Below are positions 3,861 to 28,058 of a stretch of DNA of 31,817 nucleotides, piece after piece. Origin of the DNA: a virus. The notes under the pieces were generated by a model. The model did not search any database. It saw only the letters and a program-made list of their open reading frames with translations, and was not told the origin of the DNA. Location: positions 1 to 31,817 of IMG/VR virus record IMGVR_UViG_3300020463_000077; one strand, 5' to 3'. Both the position numbers and the translations under genes were made by a program. Each line of letters starts with the position of its first letter. Position 1 is the stretch's first letter.

Positions 3861-4350
3861 ATTAATACATAAAAAAGAATGGCGTGAAGTTTATGATGAT
3901 GGCAAGTACATTATCAAAAAAACTAAGCCTGATGCATTTAATTTTGAAAAATACAAGCGTTTTCAACTAGACAATCCTTGGTGTGTAAAAGTACACAGTT
4001 TCGAAGATGGTGTTATCGTAATGGATAAAGTAGAAGGTGTAGCTTGGCAACAATACAGAACACAATTAACACGGCACCAATTGTGGAATATCTGTGTAGT
4101 GCATAGAAACATAGTTGTAAAAAGTTTTTTTGATTTTATGGATAAAGATTACATAGATCCAAATCAACCTGTATTTTATCATAGAGATGCAACAAACGGT
4201 AATTTAATTATGCAAGGAGACAAGCCAATTTTTGTTGATCCTGACGGAACTGTAACTATGCCTTGGGATATGTTTTTGCAAAGGTGTGGAGAACAAACAC
4301 AACAATGGTTTAATGAATATTTGTACTGGGCTCATAGGAACGATAAATAA
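3856..4350 (+). CDS. Protein-kinase-fold phosphotransferase-like protein, apparent ATT start
   Basis: The first in-frame ATG (4021) would cut off a clearly coding N-terminal part. The frame is open back to 3832 and contains no ATG, GTG or TTG before it. ATT at 3856, overlapping the ligase-like gene's TAA (ATTAA) with GGA six bases upstream, gives a 164-residue protein starting (M)KLIHKKEWREVYDDGKYIIK. That segment looks like the ATP-binding beta strands with a lysine. The C-terminal part carries HRDATNGNLIM and FVDPDG, matching the catalytic loop (HxD...N) and metal-binding D of aminoglycoside-phosphotransferase or kinase folds. The substrate is unknown. The alternatives are a +1 frameshift from the upstream gene within 3832-3860, or a sequencing error. 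Confidence 0.6.
   Translation: MKLIHKKEWREVYDDGKYIIKKTKPDAFNFEKYKRFQLDNPWCVKVHSFEDGVIVMDKVEGVAWQQYRTQLTRHQLWNICVVHRNIVVKSFFDFMDKDYIDPNQPVFYHRDATNGNLIMQGDKPIFVDPDGTVTMPWDMFLQRCGEQTQQWFNEYLYWAHRNDK
4342..4349 (+). promoter_or_regulatory. T4-type late promoter GATAAATA, ATG at predicted +1
   Basis: The octamer overlaps the upstream TAA stop (4348-4350). The next ATG (4355) follows after exactly five bases, where T4 late promoters place +1. The only SD-like AGGAA lies upstream of the promoter, so a transcript from here would be leaderless. Confidence 0.75.
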
Positions 4351-4354
4351 TATT

Positions 4355-5209
4355 ATGGAACACAAGAAACAGTATACATTAGAACAATGGTCAGCAATAC
4401 AAGGTGGACATGAAATGCCAGAAACATCCAAGACGCAATATAGTTTTATAGGCGATATATTAGAAAGCAAAATGTTTAGAAGTAAAGGCAAAGTTGAAGG
4501 TAGTAATGCTAGAGACATGGCTGATTTTGCAATGATGAACATGTTGGCATTATACATATTAAGCAACGAATATGACTTTGCTCCAGCGGCACAAGATTAC
4601 GCAAAAAGAACTATGATGTATGGAAACTTTAATAGTTTTAGAGCAGGAGGCACTGATTTAAATATTGCACTAACTGCCGTAAGAAATGGTATGGCAGATA
4701 GCGGTGAAAAGAATAAGTTACAAAGTAGTAAACTTGAATTCAATGATGTTAAAATAAAAGCATTTTTGAATACTATGAAAGCAGGAAGGAAACCTGCTAG
4801 TATACAAAGTTTCTTTATGAGATTAGAAAAAGACTTGGATATACAGAATAGTAATTACCGTAGCATTAGGAGATTAGTCCAAGATTGGCCTCGTTTGAAT
4901 AAAATGCAAAAACAATTAGTTATAACTAGAATGATGCAATTCTTTAGAGCAAAAGCATTGCGTAGTGAATTGTACAGTTATATTAGAGACATGAGTAGAA
5001 GTCAAGGACTTGAAGCTAAAAACGCACACAATGCCGAACAGCCAAGAATGAGAGGTTCGGATACACTAGCTAAGATTGCAATGGCAACAGGAGCGATTGC
5101 AGGCGGGTATGCATTAGGTAAAAGTATAGGCAGTGGGATATCTGGAATGGATAAGTTTGCAGGTATGAGACAAAAGATAACAACGAAAGACTATAGCGGC
5201 TCGAACTAG
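4355..5209 (+). CDS. Late virion-associated protein of unknown function
   Basis: The ATG at 4355 is chosen because it sits at predicted +1 of a late promoter. An in-frame ATG at 4286 lies inside the upstream gene. The 284-residue product begins MEHKKQYTLEQWSAIQGG, is largely helical and basic, and has a glycine-rich hydrophobic stretch near the C-terminus (about residues 243-270, IAMATGAIAGGYALG) that could be a membrane-active segment. No enzymatic motif is seen. The late promoter and the company of structural genes suggest a virion or assembly protein, but this is inference. Confidence 0.7.
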   Translation: MEHKKQYTLEQWSAIQGGHEMPETSKTQYSFIGDILESKMFRSKGKVEGSNARDMADFAMMNMLALYILSNEYDFAPAAQDYAKRTMMYGNFNSFRAGGTDLNIALTAVRNGMADSGEKNKLQSSKLEFNDVKIKAFLNTMKAGRKPASIQSFFMRLEKDLDIQNSNYRSIRRLVQDWPRLNKMQKQLVITRMMQFFRAKALRSELYSYIRDMSRSQGLEAKNAHNAEQPRMRGSDTLAKIAMATGAIAGGYALGKSIGSGISGMDKFAGMRQKITTKDYSGSN

Positions 5210-6097: not shown

Positions 6098-6105
6098 CAT
6101 AAATA
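6098..6105 (+). promoter_or_regulatory. T4-type late promoter CATAAATA, ATG at predicted +1
   Basis: The octamer is followed by exactly five bases (ACTGT) and then ATG 6111. No Shine-Dalgarno sequence precedes the ATG. Confidence 0.8.
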
Positions 6106-6110
6106 ACTGT

Positions 6111-6398
6111 ATGAACTTAAACGAACTTGATAACATAGATGTGGTCGAAGCACAACTGATATGGGCAAGAAAAGGTAACAATCTTACTCGTAAATATCGT
6201 TGTGTAGTAGGCAAACGTGCAGGAAGAATTGTTAGCAAACCTGGACAATGCAGTGCTCCTATTGATATTAAGAAACGTTTAGTGTTGAAGAAAACAAAAG
6301 CTCGCATGGGTAAACGTATGGCTCGTAAAGCTCAAAGGACCAAAAGATTCAATCCAGCAAGTAAAGCACTTAAAAGATTGAACAAGCGGAGAAAATAA
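6111..6398 (+). CDS. Very basic small late protein, 95 residues
   Basis: The product is extremely rich in lysine and arginine, above all from residue 50 on (KKRLVLKKTKARMGKRMARK), with a central segment KYRCVVGKRAGRIVSKPGQC holding two cysteines. Such a charge suggests binding to DNA or RNA, for example as an internal head protein, but no domain is recognised. It resembles small basic proteins I recall from other marine T4-like phages. Its ATG coincides with predicted +1 of the late promoter at 6098, so the mRNA is probably leaderless. Confidence 0.7.
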   Translation: MNLNELDNIDVVEAQLIWARKGNNLTRKYRCVVGKRAGRIVSKPGQCSAPIDIKKRLVLKKTKARMGKRMARKAQRTKRFNPASKALKRLNKRRK

Positions 6399-15467: not shown

Positions 15468-15795
15468 AAAGAATGATATTATAGGTATCAAATTAAGCAC
15501 AGGTGAAGAAGTTGTAGCAAGATTCGAAAAATTTGATTCTGCTACTAATCAAAAAACACTTTACATTATCAAACCAACTGTACTAACACTAAATCCAGAG
15601 TCTGGACAAATAATGTTAATTCCTTGGTTAATGAGTATAGATGTACACAGTAGTGACCCTGTTACAGTTAGTCAAGAACAGATTGTTGCATTGTATAAAC
15701 CATCTAAAGGTATTTCTGATGTTTATATGCAAGGATCAAGCGGTATCAAAATTCCAAGTGTAACTGATACAGAAAAGCTCACTGGACTATTATAA
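15445..15795 (+). CDS. Sm/LSM-like small protein
   Basis: The 116-residue product opens with an Sm-like beta strand pair (YKKNDIIGIKLSTGEEVVAR followed by FEKFD), as in Hfq/LSM folds and in small proteins of marine T4-like phages. It could be RNA-binding or a tail component; the PAAR gene follows directly. The start is ATG 15445, or possibly GTG 15451, inside the glutaredoxin gene. The TAA stop forms part of the perfect late promoter TATAAATA. Confidence 0.65.
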   Translation: MLVTSNYKKNDIIGIKLSTGEEVVARFEKFDSATNQKTLYIIKPTVLTLNPESGQIMLIPWLMSIDVHSSDPVTVSQEQIVALYKPSKGISDVYMQGSSGIKIPSVTDTEKLTGLL

Positions 15796-15798
15796 ATA
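15791..15798 (+). promoter_or_regulatory. T4-type late promoter TATAAATA, ATG at predicted +1
   Basis: A perfect consensus octamer overlaps the upstream stop. Exactly five bases (CTTGC) separate it from ATG 15804, and no Shine-Dalgarno sequence is present. Confidence 0.88.
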
Positions 15799-15803
15799 CT
15801 TGC

Positions 15804-16115
15804 ATGGCAAGGTTTATTCACAGAAATGGCGATAGTAGAAGTTGTGGAGCAACTACGGTTGCACAACAAACAAATGTCAGAGCAAACAATCGACCAATTT
15901 CAATACAAGGCGATCCTAACACACACGGCGGCGGAGCTCTTAAAGCAACCGAAACTGTAGGTAAAGTCCGCATTGGCAGTATACCAGTTATATTAGAACA
16001 AGATCCTGCTAGTGCAGATGCATTGTGTCCTCCTTTGGGTGGCGCTCATTGTAGTCCAAATGCTAGTAGTGCTAGTCCAAATGTTAGAGCTGGAGGGGGT
16101 CAAACAGTACAATGA
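15804..16115 (+). CDS. PAAR-repeat tail spike tip protein
   Basis: PAAR proteins form the sharp metal-tipped cone on the spike of contractile tails. This 103-residue protein has short repeated beta turns with glycine and the expected His/Cys residues (RNGDSRSCG, DPNTHGGG, CPPLGGAHCSPNASSASPN). Length fits a single PAAR domain without effector extension. It appears to be leaderless, and its stop overlaps the fibre gene (ATGA), so spike tip and fibre would be made together. Confidence 0.85.
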   Translation: MARFIHRNGDSRSCGATTVAQQTNVRANNRPISIQGDPNTHGGGALKATETVGKVRIGSIPVILEQDPASADALCPPLGGAHCSPNASSASPNVRAGGGQTVQ

Positions 16116-21448: not shown

Positions 21449-21456
21449 CATAAATA
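21449..21456 (+). promoter_or_regulatory. T4-type late promoter CATAAATA, ATG at predicted +1
   Basis: It is followed by exactly five bases (TATGT) and ATG 21462, with no Shine-Dalgarno sequence. Confidence 0.8.
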
Positions 21457-21461
21457 TATGT

Positions 21462-22163
21462 ATGTTAGTAAATGAAGTAATTAATAATGACATAAATGAG
21501 GGTCCTAACGATCCTCATATTTTCAAAGCAATATTCCTTGCAGGCGGTCCAGGTTCCGGCAAGGGTTTTGTTGTGAAAAACCTTATGGGTGGTTCTTCCA
21601 CTGGTTTACGAGTTGTAAACAGTGATGATGTATATGAAAAGCTGGCAAGTATAGCAAAGCCAGAGCCACTAGATTTAAAAGACCCAGAAGTGGTTGCAAG
21701 TCCACAAGGGCAGGAAACCAGAGAAAAAGCAAAAAGATTAACCAAAGCTAGACAAGGTAATTACTTGGATGGTAGATTAGGGGTAATCATTGATGGTACT
21801 GCTAAAGACGTAGAAAAAACACAACGTCAGAAAAACGAGTTAGAAGCATTAGGTTACGACACTATGATGGTGTTTGTTAACACTAATATGGAAGTAGCAC
21901 AACAAAGAAACAGAAAGCGAGCCCGTCAATTACCAGACGAAATGGTAATGAAGATGTGGCACTCGGTGCAAGATAATTTAATGAAGTTCCAACAGTTGTT
22001 TGGTAACGAAAATTTCTACTTAGTAGATAACAGTGGCGGTTTGGAAGATCCAAATCGTAAGGAAAACTTTGAGACGGTTGAAAAAGCTATAAAGAGATTC
22101 ATAACCAAACCGCCTCGTAAACCACAAGCAAAATCCTGGCTAGCGGACAAACGTCCGCAATAA
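21462..22163 (+). CDS. P-loop kinase (zeta-toxin-like) with capsid-targeting-like N-terminus
   Basis: The 233-residue protein has a Walker A loop GGPGSGKG (K34), then VVNSDDVYEKL, IIDGTAKD, a lid-like region with RNRKRARQLPDEMV, and YLVDNSG. This arrangement fits zeta-toxin or polynucleotide-kinase-like P-loop kinases; the substrate may be a nucleotide sugar or nucleic acid. The N-terminus MLVNEVINNDINEG carries an INE site like those cleaved by the T4 prohead protease, so the enzyme may be packaged. The mRNA from the adjacent late promoter would be leaderless. No antitoxin gene is seen. Confidence 0.75.
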   Translation: MLVNEVINNDINEGPNDPHIFKAIFLAGGPGSGKGFVVKNLMGGSSTGLRVVNSDDVYEKLASIAKPEPLDLKDPEVVASPQGQETREKAKRLTKARQGNYLDGRLGVIIDGTAKDVEKTQRQKNELEALGYDTMMVFVNTNMEVAQQRNRKRARQLPDEMVMKMWHSVQDNLMKFQQLFGNENFYLVDNSGGLEDPNRKENFETVEKAIKRFITKPPRKPQAKSWLADKRPQ

Positions 22164-22539: not shown

Positions 22540-24435
22540 ATGTTTCTAGGATTATTAGTTTTTATAACAGCTCTATCCATTTCAGCAGTAGCAATTTACT
22601 ATAGTATTGCTGGTCTGGTAGCTATTTTTGCCGCCGCGGCTATACCTATTATGATTATGGGTGGTGCGTTAGAGATAGGCAAACTTGTAACCGCAGTATG
22701 GTTACACAAATATTGGCGCAGAACAGTTTGGTGGTTAAGGACCTATCTTGCAGTAGCAGTTGTTGTGCTAATGTTTATCACCAGTATGGGTATATTTGGT
22801 TTCCTTTCCAAAGCACATATTGAACAAACTTCTGCAAGCACAGAAAGTGTAGAACAAGTACAAAGAATAGAAACGGAACTTGCAAGATTTGAAAGTATTA
22901 TTACTCGGGCTGAACAAAAGATTGAAAAAGCTGAAAGCAGTACTGGTAATCGTAACGATGATATCAATGCACAAATTGAAAAAGAACAAAAGCGAATTGA
23001 CAATGCGTACACAAGAATCCAACCTGCAATAGACGAACAACAGAAAATTATATCTGATGCTAGAGATACAGACAGTAACAGAACCAAACCCTACGAAGAT
23101 CAGTTAACGAATATAAAAGATGAGATAGTTAGATTAGAAACAAGTGCAAAAGAATATGAAGAAAAAATAGCTGGTCTTAAAGTAGATAATAGTGCAGTGC
23201 AACCACTATTGGATCGCATTGCTAATATACAAGCAACGATAGTTAAAGTTGAAGGTCAAATTGCAAGCGGAGAACGTGAACAAGTAAAACAAGCACAAAC
23301 AACAATAGGAAGTGTAGCTGATGGTAGTGTAGGGCCGAGAACAAGAGCCAGTGCTAATGCATGGATTGAACAACAAAAATTAGTTATAAATGGGATCAAT
23401 GATGAAGTAAGTCGCTTAAGAGCAGAATCAAAAACAACAGTAGACGAAGAACGTGTTAGGTTAAGTGGTGTCGTAAAAGACATTAGAACCACACAAATAC
23501 CTGCACTAAAGAATCGTGAAATGGAAATGCTTGCTAAGATTGAAAATGTTCGTGCAACTGAGTCACCTATAATTGCTACAGCCAGAGACGAGATTGCTAG
23601 AATTAGAAAGAGTGCAGATGATCAGGTTAAAGCAAGTAACGAACTGATACAACAACTTAGAGAGAAAATTAAAGTAGATGGTGGTTCTGATGTTGATGCT
23701 ATTATCGATGAACAAAATGACAAAATAAAATCTGCAAATGCAGAAATAGATATACTTACTGAAGAGAAGTACAAGCTAGAAGCAGAGTATAGAAAACTTG
23801 AAGCTGAGGTAGGACCTATAAAATATATCGCAGAACTAATTTATGGTGAGAATGTAGAAAAAGACCTATTAGAAGATGCAGTTAGATGGGTTATAATTAC
23901 TATTATATTTGTATTTGATCCACTAGCAGTACTCTTGCTTATTGCAAGTCAATACACATTTGAATGGAGAAGAAATGACAAAAAACAACAGTTATCCAAT
24001 AAAGATGATGATCCAAAACCTATTGAAGAAGATTCCAATGATTCAGAGGAAGAAAGACAATACGAAGATGTCGACCAGGAAACATTGGACAAAGAGTTCG
24101 AAAATGAAGATGATGATGGAGTAAAAGGTCCACATCTTTTAAAAGACAAAGAAATAGAAGAACTTTTGGAAAAAGCAGATCCTGAAACACTTGAAGAAGT
24201 AGCTAAAGAACTCGGAGTTGAAAAAGAACTTGACAAAGATCCTTATAACCCTTATACTGATACTAGAGTTGATGAAGAGCTTACTGACGAAGAATTGGCT
24301 CAAAGACAGAAAAGAAAGTTATACGCACCAGACGGATCACTTGCCGCTAATCCAACTAAAAAAGTTAAAAGTGTTAAAATAAAAAGCATAGCAGAAAAAG
24401 CACAAGATAATGAGAAAAGCAAAGACGATGAGTAA
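22540..24435 (+). CDS. Large membrane protein with long coiled coil
   Basis: The 631-residue protein has three hydrophobic segments at about residues 3-25, 27-50 and 66-90, a long charged coiled coil (about 95-435), a further membrane helix near 448-470, and a very acidic Lys/Glu/Asp tail. Both ends would face the cytoplasm or periplasm depending on topology, with the coil between. Similar proteins are recalled from marine T4-like phages without known role. Candidates are superinfection exclusion or membrane remodelling. GGAG precedes the ATG, which directly follows the nuclease stop. Confidence 0.7.
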   Translation: MFLGLLVFITALSISAVAIYYSIAGLVAIFAAAAIPIMIMGGALEIGKLVTAVWLHKYWRRTVWWLRTYLAVAVVVLMFITSMGIFGFLSKAHIEQTSASTESVEQVQRIETELARFESIITRAEQKIEKAESSTGNRNDDINAQIEKEQKRIDNAYTRIQPAIDEQQKIISDARDTDSNRTKPYEDQLTNIKDEIVRLETSAKEYEEKIAGLKVDNSAVQPLLDRIANIQATIVKVEGQIASGEREQVKQAQTTIGSVADGSVGPRTRASANAWIEQQKLVINGINDEVSRLRAESKTTVDEERVRLSGVVKDIRTTQIPALKNREMEMLAKIENVRATESPIIATARDEIARIRKSADDQVKASNELIQQLREKIKVDGGSDVDAIIDEQNDKIKSANAEIDILTEEKYKLEAEYRKLEAEVGPIKYIAELIYGENVEKDLLEDAVRWVIITIIFVFDPLAVLLLIASQYTFEWRRNDKKQQLSNKDDDPKPIEEDSNDSEEERQYEDVDQETLDKEFENEDDDGVKGPHLLKDKEIEELLEKADPETLEEVAKELGVEKELDKDPYNPYTDTRVDEELTDEELAQRQKRKLYAPDGSLAANPTKKVKSVKIKSIAEKAQDNEKSKDDE

Positions 24436-24444
24436 ACCCACATT

Positions 24445-24870
24445 ATGAGGGAAAACCCAATTTATACCGTTACTCCGCCTGATATGCTCTTACCAGACAA
24501 TGGTCCGGTAATATCTGTGCTTAGTAAAGAACTTAATTTTATACATGACGTAGAACTGTTATATGAAAATTTATTTAAAACAGTTCCAATTACACTATGT
24601 CATCCAAATGGTCAAATAGATGATAAAAATTTAGCATGGATTGTAAGTATGATGAGATTCAGCGATACAGTGTATGTAGATTTAGATAATATAAGCGAAT
24701 TAGGTATTGCCTGTGTATTAACACAAGAATTAGATAACTTTGTACTAATTAGCAATACAAATAAGAGGAAAGGTATGAAACAACTTTTGAATACAATGAG
24801 AAAATTTAATATATATGAAAGTGTCGAAGACTACTCAGAAATAATGTTGGATAGTCTTGAGACAGTTTAG
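24445..24870 (+). CDS. Hypothetical alpha/beta protein, 141 residues
   Basis: The product begins MRENPIYTVTPPDMLLPDNG and alternates strands and helices (TVYVDLDNISELGIACVLTQ) in a Rossmann-like manner, resembling an uncharacterised family in cyanophages. No active site can be named. Its end overlaps the start of the IF-3 gene by up to 14 bases, so it belongs to the translation-factor operon. No good ribosome-binding site is visible. Confidence 0.6.
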   Translation: MRENPIYTVTPPDMLLPDNGPVISVLSKELNFIHDVELLYENLFKTVPITLCHPNGQIDDKNLAWIVSMMRFSDTVYVDLDNISELGIACVLTQELDNFVLISNTNKRKGMKQLLNTMRKFNIYESVEDYSEIMLDSLETV

Positions 24871-25393
24871 AAATAGGCGTCCTACCAATGAAAGTAGCAT
24901 GGTAAATGACGCAATCAGATTCCCACAGCTCAGAGTAGTAGGAGAATCTGGTCAAATGGGTGTGATGAGCAAGGATAAAGCTCTTGCACTAGCAGAACAA
25001 CACAGTACAGATTTAGTAGTTATTAGTCCTGACGGTGATCCACCAGTCGCTAAGTTATTAAATGCTAATAAATACTTCTACGAACAGAAACGCAAAGAAA
25101 AAGAAGCGGCTAAGAAACAACGTGAAAACCAAATTGTAATTAAAGAAATGCAATTTAGATTAGGTATTGATCAACACGACTTTGAAACCAAGTGTAAAAA
25201 CATACTAAAGTTTTTAGAAAAAAACAACAAAGTAAAATGTCAGATTCGTTACAAAGGCAGAGAAAATGCCAACAAGCAACAAGGTTTCGTTGTTATGGAT
25301 CGTATAGTTGAAACGATTGGAATCGCCCAATGGGAAACTAAGCCCGCAGTAAATGGAAACCGTATGATCGGTGTCTTAATGAGGAAAGAATGA
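24857..25393 (+). CDS. infC: Translation initiation factor IF-3
   Basis: IF-3 binds the 30S subunit, keeps 50S away and controls start-codon and initiator-tRNA choice. Both domains are present: the N-domain (AIRFPQLRVVGESGQMGVMS, then DLVVISPDGDPPVAKLLN), the lysine-rich linker (YFYEQKRKEKEAAKKQRENQ) and the C-domain (KEMQFRLGIDQHDFETK, IRYKGRENANKQQG, RMIGVL). Length (178 residues from TTG 24857) is that of a full IF-3. No ATG exists before 24899, which would remove 14 residues; TTG 24857 overlaps the upstream gene and has GGA nearby. It is coupled to bS21 by ATGA. A phage copy is unusual. Confidence 0.93.
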   Translation: MRQFRNRRPTNESSMVNDAIRFPQLRVVGESGQMGVMSKDKALALAEQHSTDLVVISPDGDPPVAKLLNANKYFYEQKRKEKEAAKKQRENQIVIKEMQFRLGIDQHDFETKCKNILKFLEKNNKVKCQIRYKGRENANKQQGFVVMDRIVETIGIAQWETKPAVNGNRMIGVLMRKE

Positions 25394-25632
25394 GAAGACC
25401 TAAAATGAGTTCTGATATCAACGACAGAGCAGGATTGTATGTAGAAGTACGCAACAATGATGTTACTCGAGCTCTCAGAAAATTAAAAAAGTTAATGAAC
25501 AACGAAGGCATGATTAAAGACATGCGTAAAAACGAGTACTACGAAAAGCCAAGTGCTAAAAAACGTAGAGAGAAACAACAAGCTCGTAAACGTTGGTTAA
25601 AATTACAAGAAAAAAATAAAGATAATTTGTAA
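25390..25632 (+). CDS. rpsU: Ribosomal protein bS21
   Basis: bS21 sits on the 30S platform near the 3' end of 16S rRNA and helps mRNA selection. The 80-residue protein has the family core VEVRNNDVTRALRKLKKLMN, the YYEKPSAKKRREK signature and a basic tail RKRWLKLQEKNKDN. A 14-residue N-terminal extension (MRRPKMSSDINDRA) precedes the usual start. The pattern is closer to alphaproteobacterial than to E. coli bS21. Its ATG overlaps the IF-3 stop (ATGA). Phage-encoded bS21 is known from pelagiphages; the pairing with IF-3 is the notable part. Confidence 0.92.
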   Translation: MRRPKMSSDINDRAGLYVEVRNNDVTRALRKLKKLMNNEGMIKDMRKNEYYEKPSAKKRREKQQARKRWLKLQEKNKDNL

Positions 25633-25636
25633 AAAA

Positions 25637-25668
25637 AGGTTGACATCGCAAGCAACCTATACTATATT
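25637..25668 (+). promoter_or_regulatory. Sigma70-like promoter TTGACA-17-TATATT with operator-like dyad
   Basis: The -35 is at 25640-25645 and the -10 at 25663-25668. The inverted repeat AGGTTG (25637-25642) and CAACCT (25653-25658) straddles the -35. The same GGTTGA-N9-CAACCT-N-TACTATAT layout recurs at 30237. Transcription would start about 25675, at the 5' end of the structured region. Confidence 0.78.
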
Positions 25669-25674
25669 AGTTAT

Positions 25675-26056
25675 TAATAAGGCGACGGTCTTGTTGGAGT
25701 AGTGCAAGGAAATGTGTCTGACCAAGAGGCATAACTTGATTGCTTAGGCGTGGTAGCCAGGTTCAAAGTCTAGCGACTGAGAATCACATCGCTCTCCCGA
25801 GCGGAAGTAAGTTCCAGAGGATTTTGAGAATGGTATCTCGGTCGATCTGGTTGGAGGTGAAACCCAAGTCCTCCCTACTCACTATAACTTGACAGTAATA
25901 AGATTACAGTCAGACAGATGCGATAAGAGATAAGGTGTCTAGAGATAAGAAATACACATAAGTACAAACAACCCGATAAGATACTTGGGAAACGATATAT
26001 AAGAATAGGGTAGCTACTTAATAAGCTCGTTGGGGATCATGGTTAATCCCCAAATT
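25675..26056 (+). ncRNA. Candidate structured non-coding RNA or long leader
   Basis: No ORF with coding character is present. The first 200 bases are visibly richer in G and C than the surrounding genes and rich in helices: AGCGA/TCGCT (near 25772-25793), CGCTC-TCCC-GAGCG (25790-25803), GGAA-GTAAG-TTCC (25803-25815), and GGAGG/CCTCC (25853-25874). Longer range, TGTCTGAC near 25714 can pair with GTCAGACA near 25909. Four GATAAG copies follow (25922, 25929, 25944, 25975), then TTGGGGAT/ATCCCCAA (26030-26053). It lacks tRNA, tmRNA, RNase P or group I intron cores. It may be a free RNA or the hsp20 leader. Confidence 0.55.
26030..26053 (+). terminator. Strong hairpin at end of the structured region
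   Basis: TTGGGGAT, an 8-base loop, then ATCCCCAA form a perfect 8-bp stem just upstream of a late promoter. No U-tract follows, so it may be a processing or stabilising 3' end rather than an intrinsic terminator. Confidence 0.45.
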
Positions 26057-26064: not shown

Positions 26065-26127
26065 AATGTGTAGATGCCAAGTATGGGTCTACTTAACATT
26101 AATCTTGCTTAATAAAGGAGATAGCAA

Positions 26128-26562
26128 ATGAATAGATTAACAACCCTCGACATTAATAAACTAACGCCTTATGCAGTAGGCTTCGATAGAGTATTTGACA
26201 ACATGTTTAACTACATCGAACACAATCAAAATAGCACAGGCGGATACCCTCCCTACAACATTGTAAAAGACGGTGAAAAATTCCAAATTGAAATTGCCCT
26301 AGCAGGCGTTGCAAAAGAGGATTTGACTATCACAGTTGCGGAAGGTGTACTTACTATTGAACACAAACCAGAAGGCGAAGTAGAGCCAAAAGGTTGGGAA
26401 TGGCTACATAAAGGCATTGCCCAAAGAAGTTTCAAACGTAACTTCACACTTACAGACGATATTGTAGTGCAAGGTTCTAGAATGGAAAATGGTATGCTTT
26501 ATATTGAACTAGAGCGAATCATTCCAGAGGAAAAGAAACCTAAAACAATCGCTATCAAATAA
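26128..26562 (+). CDS. Small heat-shock protein, Hsp20/IbpA family
   Basis: Hsp20 chaperones hold unfolding proteins and may assist phage morphogenesis. The 144-residue protein has the alpha-crystallin domain from about residue 45, with YNIVKDGEKFQIEIALAGV, then KEDLTITVAEGVLTIEH. A QRSFKRNFTL strand follows, then the GMLYIELERIIPEEKKPKTI end, which includes the A/G-x-L signature and an I-P motif at the C-terminus. AAAGGAG lies before the ATG, giving it one of the best ribosome-binding sites in the window. Hsp20 genes are common in marine T4-like phages. Confidence 0.93.
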   Translation: MNRLTTLDINKLTPYAVGFDRVFDNMFNYIEHNQNSTGGYPPYNIVKDGEKFQIEIALAGVAKEDLTITVAEGVLTIEHKPEGEVEPKGWEWLHKGIAQRSFKRNFTLTDDIVVQGSRMENGMLYIELERIIPEEKKPKTIAIK

Positions 26563-26567
26563 AGTAA

Positions 26568-26591
26568 AGTGGGGGTAGAAATGCCCCCACT
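26568..26591 (+). terminator. GC-rich hairpin between hsp20 and clpS
   Basis: AGTGGGGG, 8-base loop, CCCCCACT: a perfect 8-bp stem, unusually GC-rich for this genome. There is no U-tract, so it may attenuate or protect the hsp20 mRNA rather than fully terminate. The hairpin hides the in-frame ATG at 26581. Confidence 0.55.
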
Positions 26592-26597
26592 AACTTG

Positions 26598-26605
26598 GGT
26601 AAATA
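26598..26605 (+). promoter_or_regulatory. Late-promoter-like GGTAAATA, ATG at predicted +1
   Basis: One base differs from NATAAATA. Exactly five bases (CTAGT) separate it from ATG 26611, the same geometry as at four perfect sites. Confidence 0.6.
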
Positions 26606-26610
26606 CTAGT

Positions 26611-26910
26611 ATGGATACAGAAGTCGAAATTAAAAATACGGATAAGTTGGATATTTCAAAGCCAAAGAAATATAGTGTTATCATGTATAATGATGATAGT
26701 ACACCCATGGAATTTGTTATCGAATTGTTAGTTAATGTGTTTAATCATAGCGAAGAAGGTGCTAGAGATATTACAGTAAAAGTACACAGTGAAGGCAAAG
26801 GTGTTGCTGGAGTATACTATTATGAAATTGCAGAACAAAAAATGGCAGAAAGCGTTTCGGTAAGTCGAGTGGCAGGATACCCGCTGGCTTTGGATCTAGA
26901 AGAACTATAA
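26611..26910 (+). CDS. clpS: ClpS N-degron adaptor
   Basis: ClpS hands proteins with destabilising N-terminal residues to ClpAP protease and can redirect its activity. The 99-residue product from ATG 26611 has the core YSVIMYNDDSTPMEFVIELL, with N27-D28 and H59 at positions matching E. coli N34, D35 and H66, followed by GVAGVYYYEIAEQK. Earlier in-frame starts (GTG 26569, ATG 26581) lie in the hairpin and would add an unrelated tail. The start coincides with predicted +1 of a late promoter. Together with Hsp20 it suggests phage control of host proteostasis. Confidence 0.9.
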   Translation: MDTEVEIKNTDKLDISKPKKYSVIMYNDDSTPMEFVIELLVNVFNHSEEGARDITVKVHSEGKGVAGVYYYEIAEQKMAESVSVSRVAGYPLALDLEEL

Positions 26911-26927: not shown

Positions 26928-28058
26928 ATGAGAATAGAAGATGAAGTTAAACTTGACTACAGTGATGTCTTGATTAGACCCAAGCGAAGCACACTAGGTA
27001 GTCGTAAACAAGTGCGGATGGATCGGCGCTTTGAATTTAGACACTATGGTAATCCATTAAACGAAGAAACCCATTATGAAGGTATTCCTATTATGGCTAG
27101 TAATATGGATGGAGTGGGTACATTTGAAATGGCTGACACATTAGGTGAAAAAGGTATCTTTACTTGTTTAGTTAAAACTTATAGTGTAGCTGAACTTGTA
27201 GGATATTTTGATGAGCAATCTGCACCTGCATGGAGGCGTGAACACGTTGCTATGAGCATTGGTGTAAAAGAAGAAGATGAACAAAAGTTTAGAAATGTAT
27301 ATGAACAAGTTGGTGACAAACTAAAATATGTTTGTATTGATGTAGCAAATGGATACAGTCAACGTTTTATAGAATATGTAAAAGAATTTAGACAAAACTA
27401 TCCTAACTTGGTCATTATTGCAGGTAATGTTGTTACCGCAGATCAAACACAGGAGTTAATACTAAATGGAGCAGACATCATCAAAGTCGGAATCGGACCA
27501 GGGTCGGTTTGTACGACTCGCATACAGACTGGGGTGGGCTATCCCCAACTTAGTGCGGTTATTGAGTGTGCCGATGCGGCGCATGGACTGGGAGGACATA
27601 TTATTGCTGACGGCGGTTGTACTTGCCCTGGTGATGTTGCAAAGGCTTTCGCTGGAGGTGCTGACTTTGTAATGCTTGGAGGTATGCTTGCAGGACATGA
27701 CGAAGGTGGTGGAGAAGTTATAGTTAAAAAATACATAACAGATGAAATAGTAGATCGTGTAGGCAATAGAGTAATTGAAGAAAAACAGTTTATACAATTT
27801 TATGGCATGAGTAGTACAACTGCTAATGACAAACATTTTGATGGACTAAAAGACTATAGAGCATCAGAAGGGCGTACAGTGCTTGTACCATACCGAGGTC
27901 CTGTTGCAAATACATTGCAAAACGTACTAGGTGGTGTAAGAAGCACACTGACTTATGTGGGTGCAATGAAACTTAAACAATTAGCTAAGTGTACGACATT
28001 TATTAAAGTAAACAATCAGTTCAACAAAACCTACGAGTCTACAACGACTGGAAACTAA
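26928..28058 (+). CDS. guaC: GMP reductase
   Basis: GMP reductase converts GMP to IMP and ammonia with NADPH, feeding guanine nucleotides from host RNA back to the purine branch point. The 376-residue barrel enzyme starts [20 protein letters not shown], has [23 protein letters not shown] with the catalytic cysteine C195, and the [17 protein letters not shown] segment. These match GuaC rather than the longer, CBS-containing IMP dehydrogenase. An insert near residue 265 ([20 protein letters not shown]) lengthens it. AGAGG precedes the ATG. Bases 27478-27640 use codons (GGG, CCC, CGC, TCG) rare in the neighbours. Confidence 0.9.

Follow-up and report, generated by a model that had tools for sequence, protein, structure and literature searches.

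The genes for a phage translation initiation factor IF-3 and a phage ribosomal protein bS21 form a conserved phage operon, not a chance adjacency. Judged from sequence, we put at roughly 0.6 the probability that this operon supplies two host-type 30S factors that would displace host IF-3 and bS21 and favour phage mRNAs. The stretch analysed, referred to here as the window, is a 31.8-kb IMG/VR virus record (31,817 nucleotides) and is probably a fragment. Phage translation genes are usually listed singly; the IF-3-bS21 operon differs, in that a diverse phage clade of mainly marine origin has kept two neighbouring 30S factors together in a single operon.

The earlier note had described a complete two-domain IF-3 gene overlapping a bS21 gene by ATGA, and the analysis confirmed this arrangement (Table 1). 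The window IF-3 scored 82.1 bits (3.2e-23) against PF05198 (IF3_N) and 87.8 bits (4.6e-25) against PF00707 (IF3_C), both over the Pfam cut-off, and matched a PHROG translation initiation factor at 1.4e-43. An AlphaFold model (mean pLDDT, 86.6; pTM, 0.53, with the relative placement of the domains uncertain) aligned in Foldseek to ribosome-bound IF-3 in 5lmn (5lmn_X) with TM scores of 0.82/0.87. The TTG start is credible because the codon is conserved as TTG in relatives L002-L010 and as ATG in most of the more distant L011-L023; it is followed directly by a conserved R/K-x-F. An AUU start for IF-3 itself was rejected, the start codon being TTG. The bS21 protein scored 66 bits (2.5e-18) against PF01165 (Ribosomal_S21), over the cut-off; it has an N-terminal extension of ~15 aa relative to E. 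coli bS21, and its C-terminal half is conserved. Both genes are under purifying selection, with dN/dS, where not saturated, of 0.07-0.17 for IF-3 and 0.09-0.21 for bS21. Relative to where the IF-3 stop ends, bS21 starts at -4, -8 or -11 nt in nearly all junctions compared; L083 is an exception. The two proteins are probably co-translated, given that the start codon of bS21 shares nucleotides with the IF-3 stop codon, downstream of a Shine-Dalgarno sequence that lies within IF-3.

Table 1. Features of the window, with positions counted from its first nucleotide
Feature	Position	Strand	Basis or remark
Variant GATAAATA + 5 nt + ATG	4342..4357	+	possible leaderless start inside GTG-started ORF 4286-5209
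Late promoter CATAAATA + 5 nt + ATG	6098..6113	+	predicted leaderless start, ORF 6111-6398
Late promoter TATAAATA + 5 nt + ATG	15791..15806	+	predicted leaderless start, ORF 15804-16115
Late promoter CATAAATA + 5 nt + ATG	21449..21464	+	predicted leaderless start, kinase-like ORF 21462-22163
Conserved 631-aa ORF, possibly membrane and coiled-coil protein	22540..24435	+	weak Pfam matches only
Conserved 141-aa ORF, overlaps IF-3 start	24445..24870	+	upstream of IF-3 in most loci
IF-3 (infC-like), 178 aa, TTG start, both domains	24857..25393	+	Pfam and PHROG matches, fold
Shine-Dalgarno-like GAGGAAAGA of bS21, inside IF-3 3' end	25380..25389	+	predicted anti-SD pairing, -6.3 kcal/mol
ATGA stop/start overlap of IF-3 and bS21	25390..25393	+	sequence, junction comparison
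bS21 (rpsU-like), 80 aa	25390..25632	+	PF01165
manA RNA (RF01745), between bS21 and Hsp20	25678..25884	+	60.6 bits (gathering, 55.2)
Possible ROSE_3-like RNA thermometer over Hsp20 start	26068..26133	+	29.9 bits, below gathering (43)
Hsp20 small heat-shock protein	26128..26562	+	PF00011, 5.8e-18
ClpS adaptor	26569..26910	+	PF02617, 3.4e-26
IMP dehydrogenase / GMP reductase family protein	26928..28058	+	PF00478, 2.4e-71

The earlier note had proposed looking for infC next to rpsU in viral contigs, and the two genes were found adjacent whichever of them led the search. Searching viral contigs with an IF-3 profile returned 74 loci, some of them near-identical, with bS21 directly downstream of IF-3 in 63 and IF-3 identity down to 36%. 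In the bS21-led search, IF-3 lay directly upstream of bS21 in 65/74 viral loci. Of the nine exceptions, two sit at a contig end, so that the locus starts with the match, and most of the remaining seven keep bS21-Hsp20-ClpS with IF-3 missing from its place. IF-3 was not found elsewhere on the same contig record in six bS21-Hsp20-ClpS contigs (G167-G172), where bS21 persists, and the pair is therefore not indispensable. These cassettes without IF-3 (L376, L382-L385, and L388) are natural variants in which IF-3 was lost or never gained, and, together with the conserved operon and the IF-1 and two-piece tmRNA of relatives, they make it directly testable whether viruses specialise host ribosomes. 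Every cassette contig searched had exactly one bS21, and in jumbo contigs G011, G012, and G016 both genes were present but unlinked. Among bacterial IF-3 loci (80 + 30 alphaproteobacterial loci, flanks up to 4 kb), none contained bS21; across 142 alphaproteobacterial genomes that were sampled, the nearest IF-3 and bS21 genes on one contig were ~32 kb apart (tables compared by eye). Inheritance of the cassette from a bacterial operon was rejected, as no bacterial locus examined holds the pair.

The surroundings of the pair are also conserved. Viral IF-3-bS21 loci mostly continue with Hsp20 and ClpS genes, often with an IMPDH-family gene too, and in most loci the cassette is accompanied by the 631-aa and 141-aa ORFs (22540-24870); the latter had no Pfam match. 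The score of the manA RNA in Table 1 comes from a search of a 621-base stretch, and the RNA was unlisted in the whole-window gathering scan, which uses faster filters. It was also detected in L037 and L050 and fell below threshold in L034, L035, and L038. A sigma-70-like promoter, identified by eye, stands just before it (TTGACA at 25640-25645, a 17-nt gap, TATATT at 25663-25668). Because this promoter-like sequence directly precedes the manA RNA, Hsp20-ClpS may be transcribed apart from IF-3-bS21, under a riboswitch-like leader. The ROSE_3-like candidate recurs at this position in L030 and L033. No tRNAs were found in the window.

Further translation genes occur in larger relatives. IF-1 is encoded in three contigs (G001, G005, and G006), and peptide deformylase in four contigs; IF-2 was found in none of the 11 phage records searched. 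In G001 (60197-64205), the genes downstream of IF-1 are a 161-aa ORF, then a DnaJ-family gene, then one for a Clp ATPase. An alphaproteobacterial permuted two-piece tmRNA (RF01849) was detected in 13 cassette contigs, at a distance of roughly 5-12 kb from the IF-3-bS21 pair, among them G001 at 27477-27780 (L187:7477-7780), where the tag is ANDNRAPEMALAA; none of the four jumbo IF-3 contigs tested had it. In the window, the tmRNA would probably lie beyond the window end. The type of this tmRNA indicates that the hosts of the cassette phages are probably alphaproteobacterial. The T4 capsid family gp23 was found in G004, G006, and G009, and G001 also has a match to the freshwater-2 RNA (RF02980; 71.5 bits) at 69317-69398 (L189:9317-9398). 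Collectively, the presence of IF-3, bS21, IF-1, two-piece tmRNA, and sometimes deformylase suggests a translation-takeover kit.

Under the simplest reading, which is also the one that we favour, IF-3 and bS21 would be made together via their overlapping stop and start. During infection of a host that is probably alphaproteobacterial, phage and host IF-3 would vie for free 30S subunits; on the platform, next to the anti-Shine-Dalgarno sequence, host bS21 would give way to the phage protein. Phage IF-1, the two-piece tmRNA, Hsp20, and ClpS would join in, with Clp ATPase, DnaJ, and deformylase genes added in relatives, so that the kit as a whole would sustain a high capacity for initiation and bias it towards phage mRNAs. 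The computed parts of this model are gene identity, operon geometry, conservation, purifying selection, and companion genes; co-translation, ribosome incorporation, competition, and bias to phage mRNA are the steps that it would add. Counting against it are the failure to find IF-2, the relatives that keep bS21 with no IF-3 detected, and the change of R168 to N in the cassette IF-3s.

A rival account is that the genes only supplement the initiation factors of the infected host and leave selectivity unchanged. IF-1, IF-3, bS21, tmRNA, and the chaperones all resemble capacity genes, and most functional IF-3 residues are conserved: the window protein is identical to the bacterial set at 28 of the 35 near-invariant positions (those at least 90% conserved in that set), and equivalents of K110, R133, E134, and R147 are retained. 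Against this account, the cassette IF-3s are a diverged phage lineage. In a tree with 33 cassette sequences left after thinning at 90%, they make up a single clade (100/99) separate from the IF-3s of bacteria and of other phages, save L096, a single long-branch row of unsure place, and the bacterial IF-3s among the matches returned reach at most ~45% identity to them. Recent capture of IF-3 from a host is ruled out by this tree, apart from L096. Furthermore, clade-specific substitutions are fixed or frequent (E. coli numbering: Y70A, G71N, M135N, H137N, Q138K, and R168N); R168, which bacteria almost never vary, is replaced by N in 32/32 cassette IF-3s examined, and in the window protein an R comes directly after this N. 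With such a lineage and such fixed changes, an effect of dosage only seems unlikely.

The same substitutions could instead point to altered start-site selectivity. The earlier note had held that this phage seems to use both leaderless and AUU-start genes, and that its IF-3 and bS21 variants may have altered discrimination. The T4 late promoter element is located at -13 to -6 (PMC1524935), and an ATG 5 nt past TATAAATA therefore begins at +1 and is predicted to be leaderless. Several window genes lacking a Shine-Dalgarno sequence are preceded by a T4-type late promoter at a distance of exactly 5 nt from the ATG. Across nine cassette contigs, 31/167 strict late-promoter motifs are followed, after exactly 5 nt, by the ATG of an ORF, a count that is partly dependent because several genes are homologous between contigs, though many different families appear. 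Permuted motifs gave 0-2 each at this spacing, and the controls gave 0/31 (T4), 1/15 (P-SSM4), and 6/29 (Pelagibacter phage HTVC008M). With a relaxed motif, the codon at the predicted +1 was ATG in 68 cases (3.75 expected), GTG in one, and TTG in none, in line with the preference for AUG that leaderless translation shows in both E. coli and Caulobacter (PMC9031893). The leaderless part of the claim thus stands as a prediction, late genes in the cassette clade being predicted to be partly leaderless; these genes are ready-made reporter mRNAs. The AUU part did not hold up, since ATT was seen at the predicted +1 only 7 times (3.25 expected), and a few such genes are possible at most.

Could the phage IF-3, with bS21, then permit efficient initiation on leaderless AUG mRNAs that host IF-3 disfavours? 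Leaderless-type late architecture is a strong feature of the clade and is absent from the T4 control, the IF-3 changes are clade specific, and in E. coli an excess of IF3 inhibits leaderless translation (PMC9031893). By the same token, however, extra IF-3 would by default harm leaderless mRNAs, and strong anti-SD pairing was found for about half of the window genes (48%, versus 10% of internal ATGs). HTVC008M and G171 combine leaderless-type late promoters and bS21 with no IF-3 detected, and altered IF-3 discrimination is therefore not needed for leaderless genes; jumbo contig G011 shows the reverse, with IF-3 present and leaderless-type late promoters absent. Since IF-3 presence does not track the leaderless pattern, we consider this idea quite unlikely. 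A broader version, in which a partly leaderless clade would rebuild host 30S initiation with its own IF-1, IF-3, and bS21 (plus tmRNA rescue), the IF-3 having evolved a different selectivity for mRNAs and start sites, is likewise doubtful; if true, the host ribosome would enter an initiation state specific to the virus. It is very improbable that phage IF-3 and bS21 bind 30S subunits to slow initiation on host mRNAs and shut down host synthesis: IF-3 overproduction in E. coli does inhibit re-initiation and leaderless translation (PMC2268962), but the Hsp20, ClpS, IMPDH-family, IF-1, and tmRNA genes point to supporting synthesis and proteostasis.

We found no description of an IF-3-bS21 operon in the open-access literature, which is not proof of novelty. 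Phage bS21 neighbours are known to include Hsp20 and Clp proteases (Mizuno et al. 2019, PMC6375957; Chen et al. 2022, PMC9723584). For the bS21-encoding phages of Chen et al., IF-3 is unmentioned in the main text, and in Mizuno et al. its sole mention is as a T7-like kinase substrate. HTVC008M (Kyanoviridae) resembles the cassette phages in having bS21, one gene, and then Hsp20, along with its leaderless-type late promoters, but its genome has no annotated IF-3 gene. The Sinorhizobium jumbo phages AP-J-162 and Phosso share IF-3, and AP-J-162 adds S21, Hsp20, DnaJ, and tmRNA; in both, however, IF-3 adjoins a clpX or Clp ATPase gene. The S21 (gp532) and IF-3 (gp547) of AP-J-162 are not adjacent, and the Phosso ORFs after IF-3 gave no match to bS21. 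In Escherichia phage 121Q (Asteriusvirus), IF-3 is likewise followed by ClpS and DnaJ-like genes, but with no bS21 in between. A two-piece tmRNA, as in the cassette clade, is carried by the marine T4-like methylophage Melnitz, where it is of alphaproteobacterial type, and by pelagiphage Mosig, in a paper that leaves S21 unmentioned (PMC9004378). The huge phages offer another parallel: passages of Al-Shayeb et al. (2020, PMC7162821) report IF1, IF3, and S21, as here, and S21 with N-terminal extensions, and propose hijacking of initiation; the passages found hold no IF-3-bS21 operon. Compared with the huge phages, the cassette described here is a tight pair in one mainly marine clade, on contigs of ~10 to 343 kb.
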